Shown here piece after piece: positions 245 through 6,833 of a DNA stretch of 64,000 nt (the stretch's first letter is position 1; every line of letters begins with the position of its first letter). A program made the translations under genes and the position numbers. The notes under the pieces are model-generated. The model had not been told where the DNA came from and did not search any database. It was given only the letters and a program-made list of their open reading frames with translations. The DNA lies in NCBI RefSeq assembly GCF_006538745.1, contig NZ_BJLR01000016.1, positions 248,001 through 312,000 on the forward strand, given 5' to 3'. The stretch comes from Cellulomonas cellasea. Its GTDB lineage: Bacteria > Actinomycetota > Actinomycetes > Actinomycetales > Cellulomonadaceae.

Positions 245-385
245 TGCGGTGCCGGCGCCGTGGCGGTCGTGCCGTCCGCGCGCGGTGACCAGCGGGCACC
301 GGCCGGCCGGTCCGGGTGCGCGTCCGGGGCCACGCGACGGACGCCGATCGACCGGTGCTGTGACGAACCGACGAGCAGGGGAGTG

Positions 386-1681
386 ATGGGTGTGCGCAGG
401 ACGGGGATGATCCGGGTCGTGGTGGCGGCGCTGGCGCTGGCGTGCGTGGGGGTGCCGGCCGCCTACGCGGTGCAGGGCTCGACGCCGACGGGGCCGGCCG
501 CGGCGGGGACCGTGCGGATCGAGGTCGGCAAGGAGAGCCGGGCGTGCTCGGGCGCGCTCGTGGGCTCGTGGTGGGTGCTCACCGCGAGGTCGTGCTTCAC
601 CGCGGCGCCCGGGACCCAGGTGGCGTGGGGCGCGCCGCCCGAGCCGACGAAGGTCACGGTCGGGCGCGTCGACCTGACCGGCACCGCCGGGCACGTCGTG
701 CCGGCGGCGTGGCTCGTGCCGCACCCCGACCGGGACGTGGTCCTGGTGCGGCTGGCCTCCGCCGTCACCGACGTGGCGCCGGTGAAGGTCACCGCCACGG
801 CCCCGGTCGCCGGGGAGACGCTGACCGTCACGGGCTACGGGCGGACCACCACCGAGCTCGTGCCCGACACCGCGCACGCGGCGACCTACACGGTGAGCCT
901 CGTCGGCCCCGGGACCCTCGGCATCGAGGCCGCGAGTGACGGTGCGACGATCTGCAAGGGCGACGCCGGCGGTCCCACGCTGCGTACGTCCGCGACGGGT
1001 GCGGTCGAGCTCGTGGCGATCCACCACACCGCCTCCCAGGGCGGTTGCCTCGGCAGCGCGACGACGGCCCAGGGCGCCACCGAGACCCGCGTGGACGACA
1101 TCCGCGACTGGGTCAACCAGAACACGAAGGCCACGCCTGGCGCGGACACCATCGGCGTCCGTGGCGGCGCCACGTGGTACCTGAACGACCAGAACGACGC
1201 GTCCGCGCCGGAGAAGGTCTTCCTCTACGGCAACCCGGGCGACACCGTCGTGGTCGGGGACTGGAACGGTGACGGCGTCGACACGATCGGCGTCCGGCGT
1301 GGCGCCACGTGGTACCTGAACGACCAGAACGACGCGTCCGCACCCGAGAGGATCTTCCTCTACGGGGACCCGCAGCACACCCCGCTCGTGGGCGACTGGG
1401 ACGGCGACGGCGTCGACACGGTCGGGGCTCGCCTCGGGGCGACGTGGTACCTGAACAATCAGAACGACTCGTCGGCGCCGGACAACGTGTTCATCTACGG
1501 GGACCCGCAGCACACCCCGGTCGTGGGTGACTGGGACGGCAACGGGACCGACACGGCCGGGGCTCGCCTCGGGGCGACGTGGTACCTGAACAACCAGAAC
1601 GACTCGTCGGCCCCGGACAACGTCTTCATCTACGGCGACGCGCACAACACCCCGCTGGTCGGCAACTGGGACGGCCGGTGA
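386..1681 (+). CDS. Secreted trypsin-fold pseudoprotease with four FG-GAP-like repeats
   Basis: An export signal (residues 1-28, ending AAYA) precedes a chymotrypsin/S1-fold domain (about 29-250). The usual TAAHC motif reads TARSC, so catalytic His is Ser69; Asp117 is kept (RDVVLVRL); the GDSGGP motif reads GDAGGP, so catalytic Ser is Ala194. Two of three triad residues are missing, and the domain should not hydrolyse peptides. Four 45-residue repeats follow, each with a GATWYLN(D/N)QND segment and a GDWxGxG calcium-loop-like turn typical of FG-GAP/VCBS propellers. ATG 386 was chosen because an AGGGGAG ribosome site precedes it; GTG 383 and ATG 407 are in frame. The stop overlaps the next start by one base, which suggests coupling. 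A role as secreted binding or scaffold protein is inferred. Confidence 0.8.
   Translation: MGVRRTGMIRVVVAALALACVGVPAAYAVQGSTPTGPAAAGTVRIEVGKESRACSGALVGSWWVLTARSCFTAAPGTQVAWGAPPEPTKVTVGRVDLTGTAGHVVPAAWLVPHPDRDVVLVRLASAVTDVAPVKVTATAPVAGETLTVTGYGRTTTELVPDTAHAATYTVSLVGPGTLGIEAASDGATICKGDAGGPTLRTSATGAVELVAIHHTASQGGCLGSATTAQGATETRVDDIRDWVNQNTKATPGADTIGVRGGATWYLNDQNDASAPEKVFLYGNPGDTVVVGDWNGDGVDTIGVRRGATWYLNDQNDASAPERIFLYGDPQHTPLVGDWDGDGVDTVGARLGATWYLNNQNDSSAPDNVFIYGDPQHTPVVGDWDGNGTDTAGARLGATWYLNNQNDSSAPDNVFIYGDAHNTPLVGNWDGR
1151..1681 (+). repeat. Four tandem 135-bp coding repeats
   Basis: Units begin at about 1151, 1286, 1421 and 1556 (exact 135-bp period) and encode the FG-GAP-like repeats. The last two units are nearly identical at DNA level, including synonymous positions, which suggests recent duplication or gene conversion. 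Confidence 0.85.
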
Positions 1682-3312
1682 TGGCGCCGTTCGACGCAGC
1701 GGCAGAGGGTCGTACCGCAGCCCCGGCAGCGACCTCCGGCGAGCGGGGAGCAGCGCGGGTGTCGAGCACGCGGAGCCGGGCGGGCGGAGCTGCGGTGGCG
1801 CGGCGGTCGTGGGTCGTCCGGACGCTCGCCGGCGCACTGGCGCTGACCGCGGGGGTGGTCCCCGCCGCCTCGGCGGTGCAGGGCAGCGCACCGACCGGGG
1901 CTGCGGCGGCTGCGACCGTCAAGATCGCTGTCGGGGAGGTCCGCGCCTGCTCGGGAGCGCTGGTGGGCCCGTCGTGGGTCGTCACCGCGAAGTCGTGCTT
2001 CGCCGCGACGCCCGGCGCCGCGGTCGCCCAGGGCGCGCCGACCGAGCGGACCACGGCCACCGTCGGGCGGACGGACCTGACCAGCACCGCGGGGCACGAG
2101 GTGGCCGTGACGCTCGTCGTGCCGCACCCGGACCGGGACCTGGTGCTGGTCCGGTTGGCGGCACCGGTCACCGACGTGGCCCCGGTGGCGGTCGCGACCA
2201 CAGGCCCCGTTCCCGGTGAGGACCTCACCGTGACCGGGTACGGCCGGACCACGACGCAGTGGGTCCCGGACGTCGCCCACGCGGCGACCTACACCGTCAC
2301 CACCGTGAACCCGGGCACGGTGGACCTGCGGGCAGCCTCGCCCGACGCCTCGGTCTGCAAGGGCGACGCCGGAGGCCCGACCCTGCGCACCACTCCCGCC
2401 GGCGGGGTCGAGCTCGTCGCGATCCACCACACCGCGGACCAGGGCGGGTGCCTCGGCGCGAGCACCAGCGGGCAGGCCGCCCGGGACACCCGCGTCGACG
2501 ACCTCCGCGACTGGATCACCCGGAGCACGACGCCCACGCAGCAGGTGGCGCTCGGCGGCTCCCGGATCGCGGTCCTCACGGACGACCGCCGGGCGCAGGT
2601 CAAGGACGGCGGCCTGCGGGCGGACTGGGTGCAGCTCCTGGGTGCCAACGCGAAGCAGGTCGTGGTGGACGGCACCCGGATCGCGGTCCTGGCGGAGGAC
2701 GGGGTGGCCTGGGTCAAGGACGGCGCGACGACCGCCACCTTCGTGCCGGTGTTCACGAACGTCCGGGAGATCGCGTTGTCCGGCAACCGCATCGGCGTGC
2801 TGACCCGCGGCGGTGAGGCGCGCGTCAAGGAGGGCGACCTGTACGCCCCCTGGGTCGTCGAGGCGACCGGCGTGACGTCGCTCGTGCTGTCGGGCAACCG
2901 CATCGGTGTGGTGAACGACGGCGGTGAGGCGCACGTGAAGGAGGGCAGCCTGTCGGCCGACTGGGTCGTCGTGTACCCCGGGGTGAAGTCCCTGGTGATG
3001 TCGGGCAACCGCATCGGCGTGCTGACGAAGAGCGGTGAGGTGCGGGTCAAGGAAGGCGGGCTGCGGGCCGACTGGGTCGTCCAGTCGAGCGGGGTGACGT
3101 CGCTGTCGCTGTCGGGCAACCGCATCGGCATCCTGAAGAACGGTCAGGCGCACGTGAAGGAGGGGCCCCTGGGGGCCACGTGGGTTCTCGAGGCCTCCGG
3201 CGTGACGTCGTTGGTGTTGTCGGGCAACCGCATCGGCGTCGTGGACCAGGCGGGGAAGGCGCACGTGAAGGAAGGCGATCTCTACGCGGGATGGGTGGTC
3301 GTCTGGCAGTAG
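1681..3312 (+). CDS. Secreted trypsin-fold pseudoprotease with seven 37-residue repeats
   Basis: This is a paralogue of the upstream gene over the S1-fold domain, with the same losses: TAKSC replaces TAAHC and GDAGGP replaces GDSGGP, while the Asp motif (RDLVLVRL) remains. The C-terminal module differs: seven repeats of about 37 residues with consensus LSGNRIGVLT-GGEA-VKEG-L-A-WVV. Seven equal beta-rich units suggest a closed propeller-like domain, but that is inferred. ATG 1681 overlaps the preceding stop by one base. GTG 1759 is an alternative with a nearby GGGGAG and would give a more ordinary signal peptide (RRSWVVRTLAGALALTAG, cleavage after ASA). Secretion is clear; the ligand is unknown. 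Confidence 0.8.
   Translation: MAPFDAAAEGRTAAPAATSGERGAARVSSTRSRAGGAAVARRSWVVRTLAGALALTAGVVPAASAVQGSAPTGAAAAATVKIAVGEVRACSGALVGPSWVVTAKSCFAATPGAAVAQGAPTERTTATVGRTDLTSTAGHEVAVTLVVPHPDRDLVLVRLAAPVTDVAPVAVATTGPVPGEDLTVTGYGRTTTQWVPDVAHAATYTVTTVNPGTVDLRAASPDASVCKGDAGGPTLRTTPAGGVELVAIHHTADQGGCLGASTSGQAARDTRVDDLRDWITRSTTPTQQVALGGSRIAVLTDDRRAQVKDGGLRADWVQLLGANAKQVVVDGTRIAVLAEDGVAWVKDGATTATFVPVFTNVREIALSGNRIGVLTRGGEARVKEGDLYAPWVVEATGVTSLVLSGNRIGVVNDGGEAHVKEGSLSADWVVVYPGVKSLVMSGNRIGVLTKSGEVRVKEGGLRADWVVQSSGVTSLSLSGNRIGILKNGQAHVKEGPLGATWVLEASGVTSLVLSGNRIGVVDQAGKAHVKEGDLYAGWVVVWQ
2545..3309 (+). repeat. Seven tandem 111-bp coding repeats
   Basis: The SGNRIG codons recur at 2779, 2890, 3001, 3112 and 3220. 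The period is 111 bp except for one 108-bp unit that lost a codon. The first two units are more diverged than the other five. Confidence 0.8.
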
Positions 3313-3472: not shown

Positions 3473-4036
3473 TCAGTCGTCGTCGGAGCCGGAGGAGCCG
3501 TCGTCCCCGTCGTCGTGCAGCTGGGGGGTGCCGTCCGCCGCACAGGCCGCGCGCACGGACGTCCGGTCGTCGCCGCTGCGGAGCTCGACCTCCACCTCCT
3601 CGGGGCCCGCGCGCTTCACCTCGACGGCCCAGCCGTCCGCGGGGGTCGCGTACTGCAGCTCGATGACGGTGCCGCGGCAGGCCGCGCCCACGCTCCCGCC
3701 CTCGACGTCCCAGGCGCGCGCGACGACGGCTGGCTCGGTCACCGGAGGAGCGGCGGTCGGCGCCGGGGCCGGTGTCGCGGTCGTGGTCGGGGTCGCCGTG
3801 GCGGGCGGGGAGGACCCGGTCGAGGGCAGGGCGGCGAGCCGCCGCGCGACCTCCGCCTCGCTGAGCACCGAGCCGCTCCCCGGGCCCCCGACCGCGCTCA
3901 CCGCCCAGCCGGTCACCGACCCGGCGAGCAGCACGGCGGCGAGCCAGGCGGCGGGGACGGCGAGCCGTCGCCGGGCCGTCGCCCCGGCGCTCTCGCGGGC
4001 GGTCGGCACCGCGGGGCTGCTGCCGCTCTCGTCCAT
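3473..4036 (-). CDS. Membrane-anchored or secreted hypothetical protein, Asp-rich tail
   Basis: A 187-residue product has one hydrophobic segment (about residues 27-50, AAWLAAVLLAGSVTGWAV), a Pro/Thr/Ala-rich linker, a small domain with two cysteines (GAACRG and RAACAAD), and a DDGDDGSSGSDDD-like acidic end. The topology suggests a single membrane anchor with an extracytoplasmic domain. ATG 4036 was preferred to the upstream in-frame ATG at 4075 because 4075 would lie inside the putative operator. The gene is divergent from the response-regulator gene, and phased repeats 34-62 bp upstream of its start point toward it. It may be a target of that two-component system. No family was recognised. 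Confidence 0.6.
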   Translation of the reverse strand: MDESGSSPAVPTARESAGATARRRLAVPAAWLAAVLLAGSVTGWAVSAVGGPGSGSVLSEAEVARRLAALPSTGSSPPATATPTTTATPAPAPTAAPPVTEPAVVARAWDVEGGSVGAACRGTVIELQYATPADGWAVEVKRAGPEEVEVELRSGDDRTSVRAACAADGTPQLHDDGDDGSSGSDDD

Positions 4037-4069
4037 GCCTGCATGCTGCCGCACCGCCGGACGGCGCCA

Positions 4070-4098
4070 GGACAAGGCGCGGTTAAGAGGACGACAAG
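4070..4098 (-). promoter_or_regulatory. Putative OmpR-family operator (three 11-bp-phased heptamers)
   Basis: Read on the minus strand, heptamers CTTGTCG (4098-4092), CTTAACC (4087-4081) and CTTGTCC (4076-4070) are exactly 11 bp apart. This phasing is the known binding architecture of PhoB/OmpR-type regulators. The array reads toward the divergent gene that starts at 4036, and its last heptamer sits near the expected -35. A matching array lies at 6119-6147. Confidence 0.65.
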
Positions 4099-4146
4099 AC
4101 GTGCCCGCCCGCGCGGCACGAGGCTCCCCCGACGCCGGTCATGGCC

Positions 4147-4152
4147 TACCGT
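4147..4152 (+). promoter_or_regulatory. -10 box (TACCGT) for a leaderless response-regulator mRNA
   Basis: TACCGT lies 7 nt before the GTG start at 4160, with no Shine-Dalgarno sequence between them. The expected transcription start coincides with the start codon. Confidence 0.5.
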
Positions 4153-4159
4153 CCCTGGT

Positions 4160-4840
4160 GTGGCTGACGTGCTGATCGTCGAGGACGACGCGACGATCCG
4201 GACCGCGCTCGTCCGGGCGCTCGGCGCGCGCGAGCACTCGACGATGACCGCGCCGACCGCGCTCGAGGGGCTGCAGAGCATCGTCAGCCACCGCCCGGAC
4301 GTCGTGCTGCTCGACCTCGGGCTGCCCGACCTCGACGGCGCGACGCTGCTCCCGATGATCCGCTCGGTGAGCGACGTCCCCGTGATCGTCGTCAGCGCGC
4401 GCGACGACGGCCGGGACATCGTGGCGCTGCTCGACGCGGGCGCCGACGACTACCTGGTCAAGCCGTTCGCCGTCGACCAGCTCGACGCGCGCATCCGGGC
4501 GGTCCTGCGGCGCGCGGAGCCCGAGCGGCCACCCGCGGAGGTCGCCGTCGGGGGGCTCGTGATGGACGCCCGGGCACGCACCGCCGTGCTGGACGGGGTC
4601 GCGCTCGAGCTGAGCCCCAAGGAGTTCGACCTGCTGCTGTACCTCGCGGAGCGCGCCGGCGAGGTCGTGAGCAAGCGGGAGCTGCTCGCGAAGGTGTGGA
4701 ACCAGCCGTACGGCGGCGCCGACAAGACCGTCGACGTGCACCTGCACTGGCTGCGCAAGAAGCTCGGCGAGACCGCGGAGCACCCCCGGTACGTGCACCG
4801 GGTGCGCGGGGTGGGCGTCAAGGTCGCCTCGCCGCCGTGA
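4160..4840 (+). CDS. OmpR/PhoB-family response regulator
   Basis: The 226-residue protein has a receiver domain (1-115) with acidic pair Asp9-Asp10, phospho-acceptor Asp52 in LLDLGLPD, Ser79 and Lys101 in VKPF. A winged-helix DNA-binding domain (about 130-222) contains ELSPKEFDLLLYL and a VDVHLHWLRKKLGE recognition region. GTG 4160 gives the canonical VADVLIVEDD N-terminus. The stop overlaps the GTG of the kinase gene, so the two are coupled. Phased repeats at 4070-4098 and 6119-6147 are probable DNA targets. Both direct it toward neighbouring genes for extracytoplasmic acidic proteins, which suggests an envelope or cation stimulus. The stimulus itself is not shown by the sequence. Confidence 0.93.
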   Translation: MADVLIVEDDATIRTALVRALGAREHSTMTAPTALEGLQSIVSHRPDVVLLDLGLPDLDGATLLPMIRSVSDVPVIVVSARDDGRDIVALLDAGADDYLVKPFAVDQLDARIRAVLRRAEPERPPAEVAVGGLVMDARARTAVLDGVALELSPKEFDLLLYLAERAGEVVSKRELLAKVWNQPYGGADKTVDVHLHWLRKKLGETAEHPRYVHRVRGVGVKVASPP

Positions 4841-6102
4841 GGCCGCTCCTCGTCCGGTACGGACTCGCGATGACGTCGGTCGTGCTCGTCGCGTTCCTCG
4901 TCCCGCTCGCGGTCCTCGCGCGCGGGCTCGCGGAGCAGCGGGCGCTCGAGCAGGGCCGGACCGACGCGCAGCGCGTCGCGGTCTTCGCGGGCGGCGCGAC
5001 GCAGGACGACGCCCGGCTCGAGGCGGCCGTGCTCGCGAACGACGCCGGCGCGCACCCGACCACGGTGTTCCGCCCCGACGGCACGAGCCTCGGCGACCCC
5101 AGGCCGCGCACGGCGGCCGTCGACCTCGCGGCCTCCGGGCAGGCGTTCACGGCGCGGGTCGACGGCGGCGTCGACGTGCTGCTCCCCGTCGCGGGCGCGG
5201 GCGGGACGACGGTCGTGCGGACCCACGTGCCCGACGACGAGCTCCGGGCGGGCGTCACGGAGGCGTGGCTCGTGCTCGCCGGGGTCGGGGTCGTGCTGCT
5301 CGGCGGGACGGCGCTCGCCGGCGACCGGCTGGCCCGGCGCGTCTCGCGCTCGGTGCGCGAGCTCTCCGGGGTCGCCCAGCGGCTCGGCGGCGGGGACCTC
5401 GAGGCCCGCGTCGAGCCGTCCGGACCGCCCGAGGTCGCCGCCGTCGGGCGCGTGCTCAACGGGCTCGGCGCGCGGGTCGCGGACCTTCTCGCCGCCGAGC
5501 GCGAGCTCGTCGCGGACCTGTCGCACCGGCTCCGCACGCCCGTCACCGCGCTCCGGCTCGACGTCGACCTGCTCCCCGACCCGCGCGAGCGCGCGCGCCT
5601 GACCGCGCACGTCGACCACCTCGTCGAGGCGGTCGACGACCTGGTCCGCACGGCACGCGAGCCCGCGGCGTCCCGGTCCGGGGCGCGCTGCGACGCCGCC
5701 CACGTGGTGCGCGAGCGCGCACGCTTCTGGGCGGTGCTCGCCGCGGCCCAGAGCCGCCCCCTCACGGTCGACGTGCCCGACGCGGTGCTCGACGTCGGCG
5801 TGGCCGCGACGGACCTCGGCGCCGCGCTCGACGTGCTCGTCGACAACGTCCTGACGCACACCCCGGAGCGGACCCCGCTCGCGCTCGCCGTGCAGCCGGG
5901 CGCTCCGGTGCGGGTCGTCGTCGAGGACGCCGGGCCGGGCCTGGCTCCGGGCGACGTCGAGCGCGGGCGCAGTGGCGCCGGCTCGACGGGGCTCGGGCTC
6001 GACGTCGCGCGGCGCACGGCGGAGCAGGGCGGCGGCCGGCTCGTCGTCGACCGCGGGCCCCTCGGCGGGGCCCGCGTGACGCTCGAGCTGCCCCCGGCCT
6101 GA
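4837..6102 (+). CDS. Two-component sensor histidine kinase
   Basis: The 421-residue membrane kinase has two transmembrane helices (about 8-29 and 143-162) that flank an extracytoplasmic sensor loop of some 110 residues, a HAMP segment (about 163-215), a HisKA helix with phospho-acceptor His230 in DLSHRLRTP, and a HATPase domain with VDNVLTHTP (N box), EDAGPGL (G1) and GSTGLGLDVARR (G2). GTG 4837 overlaps the regulator stop (GTGA), so the two are co-expressed. The sensor loop has no recognised domain. It is the cognate partner of the upstream regulator by position and family. Confidence 0.93.
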   Translation: MRPLLVRYGLAMTSVVLVAFLVPLAVLARGLAEQRALEQGRTDAQRVAVFAGGATQDDARLEAAVLANDAGAHPTTVFRPDGTSLGDPRPRTAAVDLAASGQAFTARVDGGVDVLLPVAGAGGTTVVRTHVPDDELRAGVTEAWLVLAGVGVVLLGGTALAGDRLARRVSRSVRELSGVAQRLGGGDLEARVEPSGPPEVAAVGRVLNGLGARVADLLAAERELVADLSHRLRTPVTALRLDVDLLPDPRERARLTAHVDHLVEAVDDLVRTAREPAASRSGARCDAAHVVRERARFWAVLAAAQSRPLTVDVPDAVLDVGVAATDLGAALDVLVDNVLTHTPERTPLALAVQPGAPVRVVVEDAGPGLAPGDVERGRSGAGSTGLGLDVARRTAEQGGGRLVVDRGPLGGARVTLELPPA

Positions 6103-6118
6103 CGAGCCGGTCGGCCGC

Positions 6119-6147
6119 CTTAACCGCACCTTGTCCTGGCCTTGCCG
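6119..6147 (+). promoter_or_regulatory. Putative OmpR-family operator upstream of the Asp-rich gene
   Basis: Heptamers CTTAACC (6119-6125), CTTGTCC (6130-6136) and CTTGCCG (6141-6147) repeat every 11 bp and read toward the gene at 6222. The segment 6119-6139 matches the reverse complement of 4067-4087 at 20 of 21 positions. The shared sequence in two otherwise unrelated intergenic regions indicates a common binding protein, most likely the adjacent response regulator. Confidence 0.65.
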
Positions 6148-6221
6148 CCGCGCTCACCGGCACGGCGCGACTGTGAGGTCGACGCGGAGGTACCGCGTCG
6201 ATCCACCCCCGGAGGCCTGAC

Positions 6222-6833
6222 ATGCGCTGGACCCGACGCTCGACCCTGACCCTCACCGCTGCTGCCGCCCTCGTCGGCGTGGGCGCCGTCGCGTTCGCGC
6301 AGGCGTCTGCCCCCGTCGACGGCCCGACGTCCGTGCCGCGCGTCGTCGACGTCTCGCCGTCGCCCACGAGCAGCCCCGACGACCGCGTGGGCGACGACCG
6401 CGGGGGCGACCACCGGCGCGGCGGTGACGACGACCCGACGCCTGGCCCGTCCGCGACGCCCGGCGTCTCGCCGTCCGCCGTGCCGAGCGCCAGCCCGTTC
6501 CCGCACTCGTCCGCGAGCCCGTCCTCGTCCTCCAGCCCGTCCTCGGCCCCGGGCACCGACGACAGCGACGGCCGGGTCGGTGGGGGCCACGGCTCGGACG
6601 ACCTGGGCTGGGACGACAGCGACGGCCGGGTCGGTGGCGGGCACGGCTCGGACGACCTGGGCTGGGACGACCACACTTCCGACGGCCGCGGGGGCGACTC
6701 GGACGACGACCGCCGGGACGAGCGGGGCTCGGACGACGACCACGACGACGACTCGCGCGGGCGGGGCTCCGACGACAGCGGCTCGGACGACAGCCACGAC
6801 GACGACTCGCGCGGCCGCGGTTCGGACGACTGA
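6222..6833 (+). CDS. Secreted Asp/Gly/Ser-rich low-complexity protein
   Basis: The 203-residue protein has an N-terminal signal (residues 1-27, LTLTAAAALVGVGAVAFAQA), a Ser/Pro-rich linker and a strongly acidic C-terminal half made of GSDD, DSDGRVGGGHGSDD and DDDHDDDSRGRG-type repeats. An ideal GGAGG precedes ATG 6222. It has no catalytic signature. Dense Asp clusters suggest cation binding at the cell surface, which is inferred. The gene lies just downstream of the sensor kinase, and phased operator repeats occur 75-103 bp upstream, so it is a probable output of that two-component system. A strong hairpin follows. Confidence 0.75.
   Translation: MRWTRRSTLTLTAAAALVGVGAVAFAQASAPVDGPTSVPRVVDVSPSPTSSPDDRVGDDRGGDHRRGGDDDPTPGPSATPGVSPSAVPSASPFPHSSASPSSSSSPSSAPGTDDSDGRVGGGHGSDDLGWDDSDGRVGGGHGSDDLGWDDHTSDGRGGDSDDDRRDERGSDDDHDDDSRGRGSDDSGSDDSHDDDSRGRGSDD
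6561..6668 (+). repeat. Two tandem 54-bp coding repeats
   Basis: Two almost identical 54-bp units start at 6561 and 6615 and encode DSDGRVGGGHGSDDLGWD twice. Confidence 0.8.

Follow-up and report, generated by a model that had tools for sequence, protein, structure and literature searches.

A probable small and conserved OmpR/PhoB-type regulon, likely complete, around two inverted 11-bp repeat arrays in Cellulomonas cellasea

Two similar arrays of short repeats, inverted with respect to each other, flank a regulator-kinase gene pair in a 64,000-nucleotide stretch of DNA (hereafter the window) from the 4.73 Mb genome of Cellulomonas cellasea, raising the question of which protein recognizes them and which genes they control. 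The elements are ordered as UP (-), array 1 (-), regulator (+), kinase (+), array 2 (+) and DOWN (+) (Table 1), UP and DOWN being the two flanking genes, and named actinobacterial relatives of the locus are found, for example, in Actinotalea solisilvae (Cellulomonadaceae) and Pengzhenrongella frigida. The analysis below points to a small OmpR/PhoB regulon that is real and conserved, and probably complete, a circuit of an ordinary kind that is unusually small and clearly conserved, and that includes an undescribed protein domain. From sequence comparison, we consider it likely that the adjacent regulator activates both flanking genes from the arrays.

Table 1. Features of the two-component locus (positions in the window)
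Feature	Position	Strand	Basis	Remarks
UP gene	3473..4036	-	ORF, orthologue alignment	187 aa; start at 4036 selected
UP -10 element CAGCAT	4043..4048	-		start codon 6 nt downstream
Array 1, CTTGTCG-N4-CTTAACC-N4-CTTGTCC	4070..4098	-	11-bp period	last unit 21 nt before UP -10; proximal edge 48 nt from regulator -10
Array 1 units	CTTGTCG 4098-4092; CTTAACC 4087-4081; CTTGTCC 4076-4070	-
Regulator-kinase operon -10 TACCGT	4147..4152	+		7 nt before GTG start
Response regulator, OmpR/PhoB type	4160..4840	+	Pfam, alignment	recognition helix TVDVHLHWLRKK
Sensor histidine kinase	4837..6102	+	Pfam, alignment, model	GTG start overlaps regulator stop; TM, ~105-aa extracytoplasmic domain, TM, HAMP, HisKA, HATPase
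Array 2, CTTAACC-N4-CTTGTCC-N4-CTTGCCG	6119..6147	+	11-bp period
Array 2 units	CTTAACC 6119-6125; CTTGTCC 6130-6136; CTTGCCG 6141-6147	+
Array 2 weaker fourth unit GCTCACC	6152-6158	+	column information
DOWN -10 element GACTGT	6169..6174	+		exactly 21 nt after third heptamer
DOWN Shine-Dalgarno GGAGG	6211..6215	+	sequence
DOWN gene	6222..6833	+	ORF, alignment	203 aa; pI 4.1 after residue 30

The starting observations of the original prediction are borne out. The segment 4067-4087 matches the reverse complement of 6119-6139 with one mismatch in 21; no inverted 21-mer pair from the two intergenic regions scores higher than these 20 identities, and 300 dinucleotide-preserving shuffles of the regions reach at most 17. 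Three heptamers at an exact 11-bp period are present in both arrays, and their triple pattern occurs twice in the window and never in 100 shuffles of it. The shared 21 bp correspond to heptamers 2-3 of array 1, but to heptamers 1-2 of array 2. Near-identity of the two 21-mers is limited to the window species and, with two mismatches, the sister locus L064, the two arrays of other orthologues having mainly the period and the core in common. Such a narrow distribution would suit a chance likeness, or an inverted repeat that recombination or a mobile element left behind. However, the arrays are present in 22-23 of 23 loci with a nearly invariant spacing and are absent from all the shuffles, and the probability of such an origin is minute. 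Chance as such is ruled out by the shuffles, the whole-genome search and the conservation described below.

The 23 syntenic loci compared are the window, 19 fetched stretches (L064-L082), L032 and L033, which stand for the close genomes G180 and G014, and L034, an extra MAG; the distant kinase loci (L030, L031, L083 and L035-L039) were kept apart from these counts. Array 1 is present in all 23, with three CTT units stepping exactly 11 bp in 21 loci and two units in L072 and L075. Its anchor unit reads CTTAAC in 20 loci, CTTTAC in L065 and L066, and CTTGGC in L033. Array 2 is present in 22 loci, with an invariant TT in all three units (22/22), followed at the next 11-bp step by a weaker fourth unit of consensus CCTCAC, whose A is also found in 22/22. 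The exception is L032, which does have the regulator and array 1: scanning its 11-kb locus revealed no array 2, no DOWN gene is assigned there, and its genome (G180) gave no match to the DOWN pattern or to the DOWN protein. Over 23 UP and 20 DOWN rows, the heptamers average 1.15-2.0 bits per column, and flanks and spacers mostly 0.2-1.1. In two loci the DOWN gene has been relocated, behind the UP gene in L034 and 1.4 kb past the kinase, behind an inserted gene, in L080, each time retaining the array and the 21-nt spacing. Array 2 is therefore an element of the DOWN promoter, and its movement along with the DOWN gene rules out that it is a 3' element or terminator of the kinase gene.

The positions of the arrays relative to the promoters are equally constrained. 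Downstream, an element whose second letter is A and whose sixth is T (xA...T) begins exactly 21 nt after the third heptamer in 22/22 loci, with a single occurrence among all other offsets between 8 and 39. Upstream, each of the 23 orthologues has a single -10-like match within 63 nt of CTTAAC, and the gap between the anchor unit (CTTAAC or its equivalent) and this -10 is 22 nt in 16 loci, 20 in two, 31 in two, 32 in two and 11 in one, so that in every locus one unit of the 11-bp series is found 20-22 nt from the UP -10. The earlier view that each array is aimed at one flanking gene for an extracytoplasmic protein is supported. With its start codon 6 nt past the -10, the UP mRNA is probably leaderless.

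Such positions would also have to be considered for repressor sites that keep the flanking genes shut off until a signal arrives, as most UP promoters have an additional unit 11 nt from the -10, within the spacer that separates it from the -35, and the weak fourth unit of array 2 falls there as well. We nevertheless find repression improbable, because no array unit overlaps any -10 or start, one unit lies 20-22 nt from the -10 each time, and Salmonella PhoP boxes in direct orientation activate at 12, 23 and 33 nt from the -10 (cited part of PMC3335776). The likeness to the PhoP distances is approximate, as direct boxes at 21, 22 or 24 nt reach only some 25% of the activity measured at 23 (same source).

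Is the adjacent regulator a plausible reader of these sites? It combines a receiver domain (Response_reg, 4.7e-26, 91.6 bits, cut-off 30.2) with a Trans_reg_C winged helix (3.4e-24, 85.1 bits, cut-off 26.2), as is typical of OmpR/PhoB regulators, and the period of about 11 bp in 23 (array 1) and 22 (array 2) loci is consistent with the direct-repeat operators of this type, in line with the original prediction. It stays below the NCBIfam cut-offs for orthologues of PmrA (161.1 bits vs 330), MtrA (182.6 vs 300) and CseB (179.7 vs 350). In the kinase, HAMP, HisKA and HATPase_c all score above their Pfam cut-offs, and the best 50 of 879 PDB matches to its predicted model are nearly all kinase cores, CpxA being the commonest, and give no hint of the signal. 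At E <= 1e-40, with 8 candidates scored per genome, the kinase is found in at least 25 of 221 family genomes, 22 matches being close, with 64-100% identity along almost the entire protein, and three distant.

The recognition helix offers a further link between regulator and operator. We take the two His of its motif VDVHLHWLR to be equivalent to H193 and H195 of PmrA. In Klebsiella PmrA, both residues are proposed determinants of base specificity (cited part of PMC3973317). His-X-His is present in 21/23 orthologues of the window regulator and in 0/20 of the more distant relatives aligned, which have His-X-Ser or His-X-Thr and whose intergenic regions, where scanned, are mostly devoid of arrays; in L033 and L071, Ser replaces the second His and the arrays are still present. 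This distribution fits a co-evolution of regulator and operator, without being proof of it. More broadly, 12 of 17 scanned loci of distant relatives have no CTT..C pair at 11 bp, L151 has one full pair, and L148, L152, L153 and L154 each have an 11-bp pair that deviates at one scored position. In Streptomyces-type and Saccharopolyspora relatives, UP, regulator and kinase are retained without recognisable arrays, apart from the weak partial match in L148, which confines the operator to one branch.

We ran exact patterns derived from the arrays against the 221 family genomes and compared the coordinates of the matches with those of the locus. The UP pattern gave nine matches in nine genomes and the DOWN pattern 16 in 16, all of them at the locus (9/9 and 16/16), and the reversed-pattern controls gave one and none, respectively. 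One of the 25 matches lies 1.4 kb from the kinase, ahead of the relocated DOWN gene of G023. The 196 family genomes without a kinase match contain no exact array. A scan of the whole own genome with the triple pattern and at most one mismatch found only two sites in 4.73 Mb (reversed control, none); a two-unit pattern with at most two mismatches found six, including both arrays, vs seven for the control. Together with the conservation of the arrays and their movement along with the DOWN gene, these results (25/25 matches at the locus, and only two sites in the own genome) make a dedicated regulon of the adjacent system, whose regulator would bind both arrays, well supported. They also uphold the compact, self-contained regulon of the original prediction, as many unrelated copies without the regulator were looked for and did not appear. 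The exact patterns are strict, missing 13 (UP) and 6 (DOWN) of the 22 close loci, so that weaker extra targets may exist elsewhere.

An 11-bp head-to-tail layout is common to several OmpR-type regulators, and the closeness of these families, evident from the score against the MtrA model, would allow another member, of the MtrA or PhoP type, to bind the arrays in place of the adjacent one. Yet MtrA is expected also in family genomes without this kinase, where exact arrays are absent (0/196), and the arrays travel only with the locus; we hold binding by another regulator to be hardly probable.

In the promoter of the regulator itself, the -10 (xA...T) ends 6 or 7 nt ahead of the start codon in 23/23 orthologues, which predicts a leaderless regulator mRNA, and this element (TACCGT or similar) is strongly conserved with no array unit beside it. 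Array 1, in reverse orientation, lies 37-38 (2 loci), 47-49 (8) or 58-60 nt (13) from this -10. The spacing thus spans 23 nt, yet all 23 loci fall into three classes phased at about 10.5 bp. When distinct spacings were drawn at random 50000 times, phasing as strong came up in a fraction of 4e-5, under a null that takes distinct spacings as independent although the sequences are related; measured from the regulator start codon, the fraction is 1.4e-4. The classes have changed at least six times on the regulator-kinase tree, some forks of which are weak. In Salmonella, natural reverse PhoP boxes lie at 30, 37, 47, 48, 49 and 58 nt, and tested ones are active at 27, 37 and 48 nt (cited part of PMC3335776). 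The agreement with array 1 is approximate, to within 1-2 nt, and reverse distances of 59-60 nt are not among the PhoP distances in that part of the source.

Considering that the phased distances are close to the positions of reverse PhoP boxes, the regulator-kinase operon is probably autoregulated from array 1, by analogy with PhoP. It was originally predicted that the arrays read toward the flanking genes and not toward the kinase or regulator. This is correct for their orientation, whereas the exclusion of the regulator is probably wrong, as array 1 is phased to its promoter in 23/23 loci. Under that earlier version, only the two flanking genes would be under the control of the arrays, the regulator-kinase operon being constitutive from its own leaderless promoter; this agrees with repeats oriented away from the regulator and with a regulator -10 conserved without a neighbouring array unit, but leaves the phased spacing (23/23, 4e-5) unexplained. 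We judge it rather unlikely, and since autoregulation by itself is put at no higher than probable, it overlaps with the core explanation, i.e. activation of both flanking genes by the adjacent regulator. The case for activation and autoregulation comes mainly from the near match of all three promoters to the distance rules of PhoP, a regulator of another phylum.

UP consists of an N-terminal TM helix, a Pro/Thr-rich linker, a small all-beta domain at the C-terminal end, in which two Cys are near-invariant in the orthologue alignment, and an acidic tail. In its AlphaFold model, the beta strands lie within residues 104-174, with a pLDDT of about 95-98 over residues 101-170. Pfam models match none of 25 members at E <= 0.01, and PDB sequences searched with a profile yield no hit up to E 1. 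A Foldseek comparison with PDB structures found nothing at E <= 0.001 (best 0.12) with a query that included the disordered linker, which lowers scores, so that the domain may have a known fold. DOWN is a predicted secreted protein of low complexity, rich in Asp, Ser, Gly and His, and acidic; its alignment has a conserved start resembling a secretion signal and a tail rich in Asp, Glu and His, and the only Pfam match among 22 proteins is a weak one to the DUF7310 coiled coil. Both flanking proteins had been described as acidic. This is generally true of DOWN, whose pI after residue 30 is 4.1-4.7 in all 20 proteins calculated, of 22 orthologues, but not of UP, whose acidic tail varies among orthologues.

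At E <= 1e-6, UP homologues are present in 26 of the 221 family genomes, and in 23 of these they neighbour a kinase of the present family. The distant kinases of G126 and G189 have no UP homologue nearby, and the three UP matches in genomes without a kinase match (G009, G013 and G007) have no regulator, kinase or triple array in the fetched stretches, those in G009 and G007 being near contig ends. In a sample of the phylum, UP is found in 34 of 296 genomes, own genome included (E <= 0.001). Out of 16 UP places from 14 of these genomes, 12 have a clear regulator and a clear kinase homologue adjacent, a thirteenth (L149) has a clear kinase and a weak regulator match, and three have neither, one of them at a contig end. 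The same divergent order is found at eight UP places in eight genomes (7-10 Mb) of one genus, presumably Streptomyces. DOWN is present in at least 22 of the 221 family genomes, at least 20 times at the locus and twice as a weak match elsewhere; these counts are lower bounds, because the profile missed G182, whose DOWN protein is aligned. The simplest reading would be that UP is the kinase's older partner, and DOWN an output specific to the family.

We propose the following working model. The kinase would sense an envelope signal and phosphorylate the regulator, dimers of which would bind head-to-tail to the 11-bp repeats of both arrays. From array 2 the regulator would switch on the gene of the secreted acidic protein, and from array 1 that of the membrane-anchored beta-domain protein, the activating units occupying the -35 region, 20-22 nt ahead of the -10, and positions upstream of it. 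Read backwards, array 1 would most likely also drive the leaderless regulator-kinase operon, establishing positive feedback. More speculatively, the UP protein may be the extracytoplasmic partner of the kinase, and the polyanionic DOWN protein an output that acts at the cell surface as a buffer of cations or of cationic peptides. A tentative extension, to which we give only limited credence, is that divergent UP, regulator and kinase form a widespread actinobacterial module in which UP is a co-sensor with its own fold, and that this module has become fully closed in Cellulomonadaceae, where one bidirectional operator and a second one would control only the module and one secreted polyanion.

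For most actinobacterial two-component systems, the regulon is guessed from homology. In the present case, DNA comparison by itself yields an operator sequence, a promoter geometry and an apparently complete list of targets, so that the signal, the feedback and what the two unannotated envelope proteins do become directly testable. By analogy, PhoP/PmrA-type rules, including reverse operators at half-integral turns, may hold for leaderless promoters of actinobacteria as well.

Concerning known systems, no described one matching the locus was recognised among open-licence PMC papers, in agreement with the original prediction. The gene of HbpS adjoins those of SenS-SenR in Streptomyces. Like the present locus, HbpS-SenS-SenR comes from actinobacteria and combines a kinase and a regulator with a secreted protein of one signalling pathway (cited part of PMC4991794). 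However, there are two flanking proteins here, for which a modulator role is hypothetical, and no domain like the haem/iron-binding one of HbpS was found by Pfam (E <= 0.01) in 25 UP and 22 DOWN proteins. Streptomyces CutR-CutS is also actinobacterial and has a very small conserved core regulon (htrA3, htrB), for which its identity with the present system was considered. CutR binds TAWATAAA and CutS has two extracellular Cys (cited part of PMC12802291), whereas the conserved operators here are CTT heptamers and Cys is absent from the window kinase ahead of residue 284; motif and cysteines speak against this identity.

The system is of the OmpR/PhoB type and resembles PmrA/PhoP. With PmrA-PmrB of Salmonella and Klebsiella it has in common an OmpR-family regulator, 11-bp repeats and a His-X-His in the recognition helix: PmrA half-sites CTTAAG and NTTAAT are 5 bp apart (11-bp period) and head-to-tail, and Klebsiella PmrA binds CTTAAT and CCTAAG, also 5 bp apart and head-to-tail (cited part of PMC3973317). 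It differs in its units (CTTAACC, CTTGTCG and CTTGCCG), in its arrays of three or four, in its local regulon, and in a regulator that scores below the PmrA orthologue cut-off. PhoP-PhoQ of Salmonella has another sequence motif and a large regulon, and belongs to another phylum. Nevertheless, its architectures III/IV and V, with direct repeats 21-23 nt from the -10, reverse boxes and helical phasing, place the boxes at nearly the positions found in all three promoters here (cited part of PMC3335776).

Between array 1, the array of CTT heptamers with an 11-bp period that precedes the regulator gene, and the regulator -10 element, the distance is 48 nt in the window versus 58 nt in the sister species (L064), whose kinase is 95% identical. 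This 10-bp difference, located within 4099-4146, amounts to about one helical turn.

Downstream of the kinase, the orthologous locus L080 carries an open frame inserted on the minus strand, between the kinase and DOWN genes, whose product has the look of a secreted lipoprotein. In the two distant kinase loci L083 and L037, the opposite strand directly 3' of the kinase can be read, by eye, as an acidic or His-rich stretch, which suggests that acidic/His-rich partners next to the kinase may recur in distant relatives.

The DOWN gene itself contains a tandem repeat at 6560-6680 (two copies of DDSDGRVGGGHGSDDLGW), and three similar copies are present in its orthologue in L033.

Two further genes precede the locus. 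The second codes for a trypsin-like serine protease with a repeat region; by eye, the product of the first looks similar to this protease, followed by repeats.

Neighbouring genes upstream of the two-component locus
Feature	Position	Strand	Pfam match (gene 2)
Neighbouring gene 1	260-1681	+	
Neighbouring gene 2	1579-3312	+	Trypsin (1.1e-17)

Finally, in the relatives with Streptomyces-sized genomes (L141-L146), the region between the UP and regulator genes harbours copies of TTGTCCACA in place of CTT arrays, a sequence that we take to resemble the Streptomyces DnaA box.
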